Positions 3,664 through 13,758 of a DNA stretch of 23,443 nt are shown here, piece by piece. The translations under genes and the position numbers were made by a program. Under the pieces are notes generated by a model, which saw only the letters and a list, made by a program, of their open reading frames with translations, was not told where the DNA came from and made no database searches. The stretch spans positions 1-23,443 of IMG/VR virus record IMGVR_UViG_3300046006_002980. One strand, 5' to 3'. This stretch comes from a virus. The stretch's first letter is position 1, and every line of letters starts with the position of its first letter.

Positions 3664-4128
3664 ATGAAAAAATTTTTAATATTAATTTTATGTTTGTTTA
3701 CTATTACAACAGCGTATGCCGATTCCTTTAGGCTTAATATTATTACCGATGTGGAAAAAGATAAGTATGTAATTTATGATGCTGATGATTGGATTTTTGT
3801 AAAATCTCAAAACAATTTTGATCTATACTTAAATAAGGGGGAACTTGAAAAGTCCTCTGAAGGATCATACCTAATACATACTATGACGCTCTTTAAAGAA
3901 GGTAGGAAGTATGAGCAAATGGATACTATAACTACAAATATTTTTAGTTACGGTATTCTAGAGTGCGGATCGGCGAAATTATATTTATTAGGAAATATTT
4001 TTACTGATCATACCTACAAAGCTAATTGGATACAAACTTTTGATCATGGGGCGTACGTATCTGATATGACAACAGAAGGTACTGCTCGGGAAGCTATATA
4101 CTTAAAAGTTTGTAATACAGATACTTAG
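3664..4128 (+). CDS. Secreted protein of unknown function
   Basis: Protein of 154 aa with a clear signal peptide, MKKFLILILCLFTITTAYA, and probable cleavage before Asp20. The mature part is rich in aromatic residues and beta-strand-like segments, with two cysteines (in ILECGS and at the C-terminal LKVC) that could form a disulfide. The overall pattern (WIFVKS near the N-terminus, a late Cys, and a terminal Cys) loosely recalls bacterial surface-adhesin E-like proteins, but I would not assign it. The reading frame is open further upstream, to 3598. The ATG at 3664 is chosen because the signal peptide begins there. Its initiation region is TTAAAATGAA, shared with four other genes here. Its stop overlaps the converging peptidase stop by four bases, leaving no room for a terminator. 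Confidence 0.7.
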   Translation: MKKFLILILCLFTITTAYADSFRLNIITDVEKDKYVIYDADDWIFVKSQNNFDLYLNKGELEKSSEGSYLIHTMTLFKEGRKYEQMDTITTNIFSYGILECGSAKLYLLGNIFTDHTYKANWIQTFDHGAYVSDMTTEGTAREAIYLKVCNTDT

Positions 4129-4841
4129 CTAGGTATATTTTCTATAATTTGACGAGCTTCGGGTATTCTTGTTTTACCATTACGGCTACCTAGGAGGACA
4201 ATAATACGTTCTCCTATAGCTGTGTCTAACATCATAACCAAACAACCACCTGCAGCATGAGTAGTACCCGTTTTACTAACTAAGAAATCATGTCTAGATT
4301 GAATGATAGGATTAGTATTTTTATATACGTATACTCTTTTTTTAACCTTAATAGAACCAAAGCTTGTATTACTTGCTTTAACAATAGGTGTATATTGTTT
4401 AGCTGCTCTTACTATCTTAATTAAATCAATAACCGTACTTACATTATCTGGGCTGATACCAGATGCTTCTACATACCTAGTATCAATCATACCGAGGTAC
4501 CTAGCCTTCTCATTCATTGCTCTAACACAGGCAGGGGTACCACCTACATATTTTCTACAAAGTAAATTTGCAGATGCATTATCAGATTTTACCAAGGCTA
4601 ATTGAATATGTTGTTCACGAGTAAAGCGACCTATTTTTTCATTAAGATCTTGCCTACTATCTAATACAACTATAACAGTCATTAGCTTAGTTATACTTGC
4701 AATTGATCTAATTGAACCTATACCACTACCTTGAATTATATCTCCATTACCGTCAGATACAGCCCAGCTTTTAGCAGTTAAATCAGTAGAAAAAGCGAAT
4801 CCACATACCCCTAAACAGAGTACTGCAAGAAATCTAACCAT
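4125..4841 (-). CDS. Secreted S11-type D-alanyl-D-alanine peptidase (PBP7-like)
   Basis: Serine peptidase of the penicillin-binding S11 family (238 aa) expected to cut D-Ala-containing peptidoglycan bonds in the periplasm. All three catalytic motifs are present: SxxK as SITK (Ser49, Lys52), SxN as SDN (86-88) and KTG (190-192, followed by TTHAAGG). The N-terminus (about residues 1-18) is a signal peptide. It lacks the C-terminal extension of DacA-type carboxypeptidases and is closer in size to PBP7-type endopeptidases. It starts two bases after the stop of the small lipoprotein gene at 4844, so the two probably form a pair. In a phage it could loosen the wall for lysis or remodel it during infection. 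Which bond it cuts cannot be told from sequence. Confidence 0.88.
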   Translation of the reverse strand: MVRFLAVLCLGVCGFAFSTDLTAKSWAVSDGNGDIIQGSGIGSIRSIASITKLMTVIVVLDSRQDLNEKIGRFTREQHIQLALVKSDNASANLLCRKYVGGTPACVRAMNEKARYLGMIDTRYVEASGISPDNVSTVIDLIKIVRAAKQYTPIVKASNTSFGSIKVKKRVYVYKNTNPIIQSRHDFLVSKTGTTHAAGGCLVMMLDTAIGERIIVLLGSRNGKTRIPEARQIIENIPS

Positions 4842-11170: not shown

Positions 11171-11428
11171 ATCCTTACGCATTAGGTGGGTTCTGTTAGG
11201 AGTACTCTCTTTGTAAACGGTAATATACTCTACCCCGTCTACAGAGTGAATGTCGTTTACGTTACTACACCACCAAATTTCTTGATTAAGTGGGTTTGTA
11301 AGTATAGATGGAGTTACAGGCTTCTTAGTCATTTTCTTACTAAAAATTAAATTCCAGTTATTCTCGAACTGATCACCAGTTACAGAGAGCGGTCTAGATT
11401 TTGAGCCTTTTCCTGCTTCTCGGCTCAT
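11150..11428 (-). CDS. Conserved phage protein of unknown function, 92 aa
   Basis: Basic protein beginning MSREAGKGSKSRPLSV, a motif (GKGxKxRPLSV followed by F-x-N-x-W-x-x-I-F) that I recall from hypothetical proteins of T4-like and other marine phages. The C-terminal half has a WWCSN segment and ends in a Lys/Arg-rich helix. No enzymatic motif is visible. The basic N-terminus suggests nucleic-acid contact, an inference. It starts one base inside the upstream stop (TAATG), so it is translation-coupled with the LSm-like gene. Confidence 0.7.
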   Translation of the reverse strand: MSREAGKGSKSRPLSVTGDQFENNWNLIFSKKMTKKPVTPSILTNPLNQEIWWCSNVNDIHSVDGVEYITVYKESTPNRTHLMRKDALRKLT

Positions 11429-11703
11429 TATACAATAATACCTGTACCAAAGATTTTATTATATTGATTATAAATTTCTTTAATAGGTTTTTCGTGCCAG
11501 ATGACACTTTCTAGCTCGACCGTAACGCAGTGATCTTCTGTATAAGGTGCGTAAGGAACTAGAGCCATCATCGGCTGGTTATCGTTAGCGTTGGAGGATA
11601 CGATTTGGAGAATACATGGTTTATTGATCTTTACATTACCATCTTTAAAGTCAACATCTCCAATAATTTCTTCACCGGTTAATAATTTTAGAATTGTAAT
11701 CAT
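11428..11703 (-). CDS. LSm-like small protein
   Basis: Protein of 91 aa with the opening ITILKLLTGEEIIGDVDFKDG, which matches the Sm1-like pattern (hydrophobic strand, T-G-E, I-x-G-x-V) of LSm/Hfq-fold proteins. A second stretch, VTVELESVIWHEKP, could form the later strands. Such short LSm-like proteins occur in many marine T4-like phages. RNA binding is a reasonable inference but is untested, and the second Sm motif is weak. If it is an RNA chaperone, the structured RNA at 12740-12865 in the same gene group is a natural candidate partner. Confidence 0.62.
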   Translation of the reverse strand: MITILKLLTGEEIIGDVDFKDGNVKINKPCILQIVSSNANDNQPMMALVPYAPYTEDHCVTVELESVIWHEKPIKEIYNQYNKIFGTGIIV

Positions 11704-11895: not shown

Positions 11896-12414
11896 CTATT
11901 TTGATGAACTCTCAGTCAATAGTTGACGTGTAGCTTTAGTTGCCTTTACATCTGGTGTATCAGCATCTCGTACATCTATTTTCTTCGGTTTCTTATGCTC
12001 CGGAATAATACGTTCAAGAGCGATTTGTAGCATACCATTAAACAATCCAGCATCCTTGATCTCAATTTGATCATTAAGTGCAAATGTACGTGTAAATGCC
12101 CTATTAGCAATACCCTTGAAGAGATAATCATCACCCGCATCGTCTTTGGTATTACCTTTAACAATTAATTTGTCTTCAGCAAACTCAATTTCAATATCTT
12201 GCTTGGCAAAACCTGCAACTGCCATTTCAATAACATAAGTATACTCACCTGTCTTCTTAATGTTATAAGGAGGGTAGTTTGGAATATTCTTTGTTACATC
12301 ATTGTGCAATTGAGATAGCCGAGTAAACTGCTCGTCAAATCCAACAAAAAACTTCTCAACATCCTTGAAATGAGTACCAAAAGATTCAGGGACAAATTGT
12401 TTTACATTTAGCAT
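11896..12414 (-). CDS. hsp20: Hsp20/IbpA-type small heat-shock protein
   Basis: Alpha-crystallin-domain chaperone of 172 aa that holds unfolding proteins. The N-terminal arm has a GFDEQFTRL segment as in IbpA. The core begins with NYPPYNIKKTGEYTYVIEMAVAGF, then DIEIEFAEDKLIVKG and GIANRAFTRTFAL, which is the IbpA-type 'I-A-x-R-x-F-x-R-x-F' signature, followed by NGMLQIALER. The C-terminal tail is unusually Lys/Thr/Asp-rich. Hsp20 is a standard gene of marine cyanophages and related T4-like phages and often lies between regA and 43, as here. A good Shine-Dalgarno (AAGGA) is present. It lies just after the 98-aa gene (4-base gap), so both may come from the late promoter at 12871. Confidence 0.94.
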   Translation of the reverse strand: MLNVKQFVPESFGTHFKDVEKFFVGFDEQFTRLSQLHNDVTKNIPNYPPYNIKKTGEYTYVIEMAVAGFAKQDIEIEFAEDKLIVKGNTKDDAGDDYLFKGIANRAFTRTFALNDQIEIKDAGLFNGMLQIALERIIPEHKKPKKIDVRDADTPDVKATKATRQLLTESSSK

Positions 12415-12418
12415 AGTA

Positions 12419-12715
12419 TTAATCCTTAAATGGTTTAGCTTTAGTTGCTGGCTGTTCTAACCAAGCTTTCATTCCTGCTTGTACCCAATCAATGTTGAAA
12501 GGGTTAATCATTTCTTCGACTTTACTCTGCGTCACTTTTTTATTAATGAAGCCAAGCGAGTCTTTTACTGAAGAAACAACAGCATGGGAGAATACTGTTT
12601 GTGCGTCCACAAAATCGTTTAGTGGTTTTGCAAGTTCAGGGGTTGTTACATACTTAGAGATGAATTGGCGTTTGCCATTTTGAATTGTGTCGATAAAAAT
12701 ATCGGCTGTAATCAT
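12419..12715 (-). CDS. Unrecognised helical protein, 98 aa
   Basis: Mostly helical, charged protein: IFIDTIQNGKRQFISKYVTTPELAKPLNDFVDAQTVFSHAVVSSV in outline, then a Lys-rich middle and an Ala/Lys-rich end. The Q-x-x-F...A-x-x-x-A pattern faintly recalls phasin-like amphipathic helices, but I would not assign it. It is the first gene after the structured leader, with a good AGGAG before its ATG. If the leader acts as an attenuator, this gene and hsp20 are its targets. No signal peptide or membrane segment is present. Confidence 0.7.
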   Translation of the reverse strand: MITADIFIDTIQNGKRQFISKYVTTPELAKPLNDFVDAQTVFSHAVVSSVKDSLGFINKKVTQSKVEEMINPFNIDWVQAGMKAWLEQPATKAKPFKD

Positions 12716-12739
12716 AAGTGCTCCTATTAAGCGAGTTTT

Positions 12740-12762
12740 AAAATACTACCCCGAAGGCGTAG
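12740..12762 (-). terminator. UUCG-tetraloop hairpin, intrinsic terminator-like
   Basis: On the minus strand CTACGCC-TTCG-GGGTAG forms six pairs with one bulged G, capped by the very stable C(UUCG)G tetraloop, and is followed by TATTTT. T4 is known for CUUCGG hairpins at transcript and processing boundaries. It lies 25 bases before the start codon of the gene at 12715. The T run is short, so read-through is likely. The 5' arm competes with the closing helix of the upstream RNA fold. Confidence 0.55.
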
Positions 12763-12865
12763 CGGTCCCAGCTTACCTTATACTGGCTCGAACTAACGTG
12801 TCGAGGGTGTAATTACACGGACGCCTTATACCGTAGCATCAAACAGCCCTAAGGAAGGGTCTAGT
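12740..12865 (-). ncRNA. Structured leader or small RNA between late promoter and gene at 12715
   Basis: From the predicted late start (about 12865), a transcript of about 126 nt would run to a UUCG hairpin. By eye it folds with AAGGCGT (12821-12827) pairing to ACGCCTT (12754-12760), seven perfect pairs. This encloses three small hairpins: GTGT-AATT-ACAC (12807-12818), CTCGA/TCGAG with a 9-base loop (12787-12805), and CCAG/CTGG with an 11-base loop (12768-12786). No ORF of note covers it. The 3' strand of the closing helix is also the 5' arm of the terminator hairpin, so the two are mutually exclusive. It resembles no RNA family I can name. Whether it is a free small RNA or a cis-acting leader is open. 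Confidence 0.5.
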
Positions 12866-12870
12866 AAATT

Positions 12871-12878
12871 TATTTATA
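12871..12878 (-). promoter_or_regulatory. T4-type late promoter motif TATAAATA
   Basis: Exact TATAAATA on the minus strand, starting 4 bases after the regA stop codon. By T4 geometry, transcription would start at about 12865, giving a 150-base leader before the gene at 12715. It would supply late expression to the 98-aa gene, hsp20 and the following small genes, separate from the replication genes upstream. It is inferred from the motif match and its location. Confidence 0.55.
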
Positions 12879-12881
12879 ATC

Positions 12882-13313
12882 TTAATCGTAGTAGTCGTGC
12901 TTCTTTTTACCAATATTATATTTAGTTTGTAGATCCCACTCGTCTTTATCTTTAAATGCAATAACTTTAATTTGAGATAGAGGAGCTAAATCTTTAATAA
13001 TATCTGGATTTACAACCTTAACTAAACCCCAATCCGACAGCAGTTTAGCAATTGTATTTCTACGTTCAATATCATTATCTGAGAGATCAGCTTGTTTACC
13101 GTCTAGAGCAAAGAGCTCTTTAAAATGTACGATAAAGTAATTACCTTGTTTATGTAGTATATGGCAAGATTGATATAATATCTTTTCTTTTCTAGAAGCT
13201 ACCCCTATTCTAGTTAATGTTTCTCTTACCTTTAAAAAATCGTCTGGTTGTGCTAATGTAACTTCTAACGGAATGTACCCCGGTAAGTTAACTTTGAAGA
13301 ACTCGTTTGACAT
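12882..13313 (-). CDS. regA: RegA translational repressor
   Basis: Homologue of T4 RegA (143 aa versus 122), which binds early mRNAs over their start codons and blocks ribosome loading. Strong collinearity with T4: EVTLAQPDDFLKVRETLTRIGVA, the YQSCHILHKQGNYFIVHFKELF block, DGKQADLSDNDIERRNTIAKLL, DWGLVKVV and a closing FKDKDEW...KYNIG segment. The extra length is at both ends: an N-terminal MSNEFFKVNLPGYIPL and a C-terminal basic/His/Tyr tail. The start at 13313 has AGGTGGGG six bases upstream; a GTG at 13325 is less likely. It overlaps the end of gene 62 by 26 bases. Its targets may include the genes sharing the TTAAAATGAA start box. Confidence 0.95.
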   Translation of the reverse strand: MSNEFFKVNLPGYIPLEVTLAQPDDFLKVRETLTRIGVASRKEKILYQSCHILHKQGNYFIVHFKELFALDGKQADLSDNDIERRNTIAKLLSDWGLVKVVNPDIIKDLAPLSQIKVIAFKDKDEWDLQTKYNIGKKKHDYYD

Positions 13314-13758
13314 TACTAACCCCACCTTTTTCTAATTTTTGTTTTAAGTAGTCAATTTTAGATTGATCAAGAAGGGGCAGAACTTGGCGTGCTTTTTCTG
13401 TGCTATAGCCATAGTATTTTTTAATAACTTCTATCGATTCAATCTTCTCCACTTTGATCCATTTATTGAATCTCTTACGTGGTCTTATGTTATTTATTAG
13501 AAATTGAAACTGGAGCTTTTTGTCTAGATGTGCACGGGAATTCATCTCATTCGCAGGTATTACCGTATCTGCTCCATACGATAAACCCTTATTAATTATA
13601 TAAGGAACATACTGCTTTTCAGACCAATCATCTACGATAAGATCAGTCTTGTTAAAGGTAATAGCATTAATAAAATCAAAAGGCGATATTGCTGGTTCTT
13701 TAAATACCGGCTCCTCCACTACTTCTACTGCTTGACCAAAAACATCATTTATATCCAT
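13288..13758 (-). CDS. 62: Clamp loader small subunit gp62
   Basis: Protein of 156 aa (T4 gp62 has 187) that joins a gp44 tetramer to load the gp45 clamp onto DNA. Recognisable blocks are SPFDFINAITFNK, YVPYIINKGLSYGADTVIPANEMN, a HLDKKLQFQFLINNIRPRKRF run and a terminal YYGYSTEKARQVLPLL segment, which are standard for gp62 of T4-like phages. The N-terminal MDINDVFGQAVEVVEEP extension is typical of marine T4-like versions as I recall. It overlaps the upstream membrane-protein gene by 10 bases and regA by 26, so the 44-TM-62-regA genes are translation-coupled. Confidence 0.94.
   Translation of the reverse strand: MDINDVFGQAVEVVEEPVFKEPAISPFDFINAITFNKTDLIVDDWSEKQYVPYIINKGLSYGADTVIPANEMNSRAHLDKKLQFQFLINNIRPRKRFNKWIKVEKIESIEVIKKYYGYSTEKARQVLPLLDQSKIDYLKQKLEKGGVSNVKRVLQS

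Follow-up and report, generated by a model that had tools for sequence, protein, structure and literature searches.

The window analysed here, the whole stretch of 23,443 nucleotides, is a 23.4-kb IMG/VR fragment of an uncultured virus whose gene content indicates a T4-like phage. On its minus strand, gp45, gp44, gp62 and regA are followed by an intergenic stretch, a 98-aa gene, hsp20 and the gene for an LSm-like protein, and an ORF at the other end of the window was read by eye as the DNA polymerase gp43. The RNA leader studied here also lies entirely on the minus strand, so that its coordinates fall from 5' to 3'. The gene upstream of it, regA (12882 to 13325; Pfam Translat_reg, E 1.6e-48), encodes a translational repressor and closes the replication operon gp45-gp44-gp62-regA. 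Downstream, the 98-aa gene (12419 to 12715, ATG at 12715) is the first of an operon, its stop codon lying 4 nt upstream of the start of hsp20 (11896 to 12414), a small heat-shock protein gene matching Pfam HSP20 (E 3e-16) and PHROG 432 (E 2.6e-43). The 98-aa gene has no match in Pfam or PHROG; relatives of 71 to 76 aa are present in many phages. In marine T4-like cyanophages, hsp20 is a core gene (PMC3037559). An LSm-like protein had been predicted nearby from the letters alone, and its gene (11428 to 11703) indeed matches PDB 3by7 (E 1e-7) as well as TIP60 chains, making it a possible RNA-binding partner. The window also holds a phage-encoded Peptidase_S11 (D-Ala-D-Ala carboxypeptidase) gene at 4125 to 4841.

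The intergenic stretch opens with a T4-type late promoter element, TATAAATA, read from 12878 to 12871. By itself the octamer is not significant, with 2 occurrences in the window against 6.1 expected. Among relatives, 52 of 100 distinct leaders have a late-promoter match in the 250 nt upstream, versus 61 of 540 control stretches (11%); this enrichment bears out the late promoter named in the original prediction. Late transcription would begin about 6 to 7 nt downstream of TATAAATA, near 12865.

Since single-sequence signals are at chance level (RNAfold gives the window RNA alone a fold z of -0.81), the decision on structure rests on relatives. A regA-based search returned 80 loci, several with related leaders; the exact P3 pattern CCAGTATNNGGTAAGCTGG occurs in at least 119 viral contigs; and a second pattern, which leaves P1, P2 and P3 free, returned the same loci together with new variants. 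All but ten of the P3-pattern contigs carry the same element of about 100 nt, which we call class A (P1, PM, a GUGU-ACAC hairpin, P2, P3). With few exceptions, a UUCG-type hairpin comes next, and then CUCGCUUAA..AGGAG with a start codon. The other classes share P2 and P3 and differ in the middle. Altogether, more than 100 aquatic T4-like phages, all uncultured, carry the leader between a late promoter and the hsp20 operon; ten long contigs (38 to 164 kb) have one copy of the element each.

Read in this alignment, the 5' domain of the window is a row of local hairpins. P1 (12847 to 12859) pairs in the CCCU/AGGG register around a conserved CCUUA and shows two double-change pairs in alignment A1. 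PM (12820 to 12840, GAUGCU/GGCGUC) is paired in 94% of cells and has compensatory GAUGU/AUAUC variants, which lend the predicted hairpin modest support. It is followed by the palindromic GUGU-AAUU-ACAC hairpin (12807 to 12818), nearly invariant in class A; a stem without variation yields no covariation evidence. P2 (12787 to 12805), with ACGnnA in its loop, and P3 (12768 to 12786), CCAGU-AUAAGGUAA-GCUGG, directly adjoin with no spacer, and they are the best-supported part. P2 has double changes at every pair and covaries across classes, and the P3 stem is swapped between CCAGU/GCUGG, CCUGU/GCAGG, GCUGG/CCAGC, GCCGU/ACGGC and others. Across 41 distinct sequences from all classes, 99.8% of P2-P3 cells are paired and the covariation score is 0.860 versus 0.223 in shuffles, with all slid registers far lower. 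The loops are kept where the stems have diverged: ACGnnA in most P2 hairpins and an invariant GUAA at the end of the P3 loop. For the whole class-A local structure (54 distinct sequences), 97.1% of cells are paired, ten pairs show double changes, and covariation reaches 0.181 versus 0.105 in shuffles. A kissing contact between the P1 and P3 loops (ACCUUA with UAAGGU) was considered and rejected: it is invariant in class A, only 3 to 4 bp are possible in most other leaders, and CCUUAGG stays conserved where the contact shrinks to this length. Rfam returned nothing for the 5' domain on 12650 to 12950 at E up to 10, and nothing over the 5' element of nine relatives at E up to 1. Judged by comparison, the 5' domain is a widespread, covariation-supported RNA fold that is absent from Rfam. 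The original prediction of a late-promoter-driven structured RNA outside the named families has therefore held up, and the conservation check it proposed shows that related phages preserve P2, P3 and the UUCG hairpin through compensatory changes.

The same comparison bears on the switch that had been proposed for this RNA, a riboswitch or protein-responsive attenuator in which a closing helix around three hairpins and a terminator exclude each other. In the window, AAGGCGU (12827-12821) is indeed complementary to ACGCCUU (12760-12754), so that the two helices share bases, and the fold with this closing helix (12754 to 12827) is the window's MFE at 37 C, with a probability of 0.92. However, the helix has a covariation of 0.111 versus 0.111 in shuffles and not one double-change pair, its outer extension is likewise at shuffle level, and the number of relatives in which partition functions prefer it is only 2 to 5 out of 32, varying with temperature; in the window itself it is favored only when warm and not preferred at 15 C. 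The arms of the UUCG hairpin covary with each other only and vary without matching change in the core. The 5' strand assigned to the closing helix has its local partner in PM. Thus, the quoted letters and the three hairpins are present, but the arrangement that would enclose them is not conserved; compensatory changes, expected in both alternative helices, are seen in the UUCG hairpin and not in the closing helix. With a closing helix that does not covary and is rare in relatives, the switch is not a conserved feature, and we regard a riboswitch or attenuator of this design as highly improbable.

The link to hsp20 is close. The class-A element precedes hsp20 or a small ORF in 110 of the 113 loci with enough sequence; hsp20 follows directly in 81 of them, a small ORF related to the 98-aa gene and then hsp20 in 28, and a small ORF only in 1. 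Further class-A rows outside the 113 are truncated loci or a chance word match. An independent search with the class-C P3 hairpin placed 77 of 82 occurrences before hsp20, and 3 more are truncated leaders of the same kind. In three loci (L109, 2502-2599; L197; L204, 1904-2001) the core occurs without hairpin I, the Shine-Dalgarno (SD) hairpin and hsp20, and precedes other genes, among them a carbamoyltransferase-like and a metallophosphatase-like ORF (identified by eye); P2-P3-like or P3-like hairpins also stand directly before tRNA genes in L104 (802-820) and L377 (6820-6838). These three class-A loci and two copies before tRNA genes indicate that the 5' domain is not bound to hsp20 alone. 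The class-A domain is about 90% identical (core median 0.91, a value inflated by the retrieval of class A with exact words) between phages whose Hsp20 proteins are at 32 to 50% identity, which may reflect strong selection or module exchange. The P3 19-mer is absent from 84,980 prokaryote genomes, and a host origin of the element was rejected on this ground. BLAST against isolated phages found no core of class A, class B or the L239 type, and for class C only chance-level matches of about 25 nt. In some phages (L109, L154, L257 and others), pqqA, the gene of the PQQ precursor peptide, lies directly before the leader; three of these peptides match Pfam PF08042 (E 9e-9 to 2e-12), which suggests PQQ-using hosts such as methylotrophs.

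Behind the 5' domain, hairpin I (12745 to 12763; GCUAC, bulged G, CC-UUCG-GG, GUAGU) covaries at 0.452 versus 0.152 in shuffles and is followed by a U-rich tract, UAUUUU (12740 to 12745). With a promoter at the 5' end and a hairpin plus U tract at the 3' end, the locus could release a late small RNA of about 120 nt as a free transcript, hsp20 being reached by read-through only. Such an RNA would also fit the at least 5 T in 8 found after the hairpin in 46 of 83 relatives, and both the P2-P3 copies before tRNA genes and the cores of L109, L197 and L204 suggest an autonomous unit. However, a terminator scan of the window has no hit at the UUCG hairpin, whose tail AUUUUAAA has only four consecutive T, too short a tract. 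Cultured cyanophages retain hairpin I in their hsp20 leaders with no U tract behind it, and the gene upstream of the leader is divergent in S-RIM2 and P-SSM3, leaving nothing for hairpin I to terminate. In the simplest leaders (L258, L270, L273, L301), hairpin I stands directly behind the late promoter, at the extreme 5' end of the transcript, where no useful RNA would be terminated. The near-constant position of the element before hsp20 also speaks against a free RNA, which we consider unlikely. Hairpin I is thus probably a weak terminator in the window and not mainly a terminator, with some termination possible there and in about half of the relatives; of the UUCG terminator originally predicted, the covarying hairpin and its UAUUUU are real.

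The best functional clue is a Shine-Dalgarno hairpin that adjoins the originally described stretch on its downstream side and had been missed. Here CUCGCUUAAUAGGAG, at 12735-12721, would form hairpin II (CUC, bulged G, CU, loop UAAU, AGGAG), in which a UYGCU strand containing a bulged G lies opposite the Shine-Dalgarno sequence AGGAG (12721 to 12725) of the 98-aa gene, 5 nt before its ATG at 12715. Across phages, the final leader element is YUYGCU, a few nt and AGGAG, and its conservation before hsp20 is the evidence for hairpin II. Among hsp20 genes, 124 of 175 have the UYGCU-SD motif at the SD, as do 52 of 55 small-ORF genes; for other SD-bearing genes the figure is 27 of 818. In 49 of the remaining 51 hsp20 genes, it lies 40 to 420 nt upstream (control rate, 17/751); of the last two, one has a truncated leader and the other the single-letter variant CUCGCGUAAAGGAG. 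Overall, the motif precedes 173 of the 174 phage hsp20 genes whose leaders are uncut, including those behind a coupled small ORF. UUUGCU strings before hsp20 behind the small ORF were considered as a second thermometer and rejected, since they apparently belong to the coding end of the ORF.

Cultured phages share this design. All 11 cultured marine phage hsp20 leaders checked (S-RIM2, Syn19, P-SSM2, P-SSM3, Syn1, S-RIM44, S-SKS1, S-MbCM7, ACG-2014f, C48C1 and Melnitz) have the motif and the two-hairpin architecture, and for several of them the RNAfold MFE at the SD is the bulged-G stem, (((.(((....)))))). For the window, where RNAfold alone prefers the neighboring register GCUU/GAGC, we infer the bulged-G stem; the arms of hairpin II are nearly invariant, which places it outside what covariation can test. 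RNAfold from 5 to 45 C gave no melting trend for the window, using energy models that leave out the non-canonical ROSE pairs. In ROSE thermometers, U(U/C)GCU pairs imperfectly with the SD and contains a bulged G, and the short Pseudomonas type consists of a stable hairpin I and then an SD hairpin II before ibpA (PMC11342760, PMC3669281). Of 10 cultured-phage loci, 7 gave an Rfam match to ROSE_3 (RF02523) precisely at the SD hairpin (best E 6e-4, 34.1 bits), and in the window leader ROSE_3 is the only Rfam match, a very weak one at 10.5 bits. No phage leader reaches the gathering cut-off of 43 bits, so we call these leaders ROSE-like and not members of RF02523. Outside the T4-like phages, the jumbo Pseudomonas phage PA5oct (L321) has a similar hsp20 leader, with a GCC..GGG hairpin and, at the SD, CUUGCGUAAAGGAG.

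What separates the promoter from hairpin I differs from phage to phage: some leaders have no element there, and others carry a UCCC..GGGAUGGGA hairpin, the P1-P3 domain, H-type pseudoknots or several of these together. In sister leaders, both stems of the pseudoknots vary in step, and folds scored as pseudoknots occur behind the first hairpin in 21 of 43 distinct sequences versus 0.9 expected in shuffles; in the window leader, no H-type pseudoknot was seen. A conserved module, AAGTCTACTGCAATTGCGCTCCCTA..CTAGGTGATCAAGCAGTGTGCGAA, with a pseudoknot-like look lies upstream of P1 in L090, L098, L106, L142, L181 and L200.

Two further readings concern the 5' domain only and overlap with the explanation that we prefer. 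According to one, a phage protein binds the 5' domain or a pseudoknot as an autogenous operator and represses or stabilizes the message, the candidates being Hsp20 itself, a single-stranded DNA-binding protein like gp32, RegA and the LSm-like protein. In T4, gp32 acts through a 5' pseudoknot of its own gene 32 message, which the pseudoknots near the 5' end of sister leaders resemble (PMC535899). The invariant ACGnnA and GUAA loops on diverged stems look like a recognition site, and the LSm-like protein is encoded nearby. Against this, some phages retain hairpins I and II yet lack the modules, and binding is putative, no particular protein being linked to the loops. An operator of this kind, whichever candidate acts, seems to us rather doubtful; it can coexist with the preferred explanation, within which it would give the 5' domain its role. 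The other reading, by analogy, is a standby device with which the 30S subunit loads despite a folded ribosome binding site (RBS), as on the tisB mRNA, where the RBS is sequestered and standby loading proceeds via a 5' pseudoknot (PMC7708055). The tisB layout of a sequestered RBS with an upstream 5' pseudoknot or compact fold has a counterpart in the order of the window: 5' fold, hairpin I, A/U-rich single strand, SD hairpin. However, with about 10 nt the single-stranded stretch is short, and a role of S1 or the 30S subunit is purely putative, so that we view standby loading as quite unlikely.

Sequence comparison across phages shows the late-promoter match, the P1, PM, P2 and P3 folds, the UUCG hairpin I, the order of these parts, the anti-SD motif and the linkage to hsp20. 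We favor, as the probable explanation, a cis-acting mRNA leader of a late hsp20 operon that ends in a thermometer-type SD hairpin. By analogy with the ROSE family, hairpin II, with UYGCU and its bulged G against AGGAG, would hold the ribosome off and be loosened by warmth, unfolding stress or ribosome recruitment, and hairpin I would be the stable, non-melting neighbor known from short ROSE thermometers. More tentatively, the late transcript may owe a folded 5' end to the exchangeable 5' domain, where a protein or the 30S subunit would dock and so tune translation or message lifetime; the domain would not work by a switch between terminator and closing helix. The leader is likely a way for water-dwelling phages to control a chaperone late in infection, and the motifs of its 3' half mark a new ROSE variant, one carried by phages. 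Our literature search, whose coverage left out most subscription journals, found no RNA thermometer described in a phage hsp20 leader and no account of phage hsp20 control. If the explanation is right, thermometer-type control of a late chaperone would tie infection to water temperature and protein-folding stress. Conceivably, though with less than even confidence, P1-PM-P2-P3 in addition defines a regulatory RNA class that is new and recognizes one specific partner (phage or host protein, ribosome or small molecule), a module exchanged with pseudoknots ahead of a ROSE-type thermometer and forming a two-input leader; if so, the late chaperone gene of phages of freshwater and marine bacteria would respond to temperature and a second signal.

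Set beside known systems, the leader shares features with several. Type III toxin-antitoxin loci (ToxIN) are ordered as promoter, pseudoknot RNA, terminator and protein gene, and on paper our locus has the same order of parts. However, a small heat-shock protein is not a ToxN-type toxin, there is no repeat array, and no homology is claimed; this reading was rejected because the gene is hsp20. The comparisons with the gene 32 operator and tisB are analogies, not memberships. Like the T4/RB69 gene 32 operator, the leader is a folded 5' element upstream of the RBS in a T4-like phage mRNA, with H-type pseudoknots at that place in sister leaders and not in the window; unlike it, the leader belongs to another gene, has a hairpin domain in the window and a folded instead of unstructured SD, and its partner is only putative, whereas the operator has gp32. 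With the tisB standby leader, it shares a 5' structure and a sequestered RBS; the two are not homologous, and standby loading would apply here by analogy only. Phage Melnitz, a phage of streamlined aquatic bacteria, has a glutamine riboswitch and a tmRNA (PMC9004378), another instance of regulatory RNA in such phages. That riboswitch is a different RNA, since Rfam finds no glutamine riboswitch in our leader, and Melnitz has its own plain ROSE-like hsp20 leader. Compared with ROSE_3, the phage leaders are phage-encoded, stand behind a T4-type late promoter, carry an extra conserved 5' domain or pseudoknots and score below the Rfam cut-off, and their temperature response is putative. Like ROSE_3 and the Pseudomonas ibpA leader, they precede a small heat-shock gene (in the window, via the 98-aa gene) and present, in the same order, a stable hairpin I and then a U(U/C)GCU hairpin II that faces the SD.
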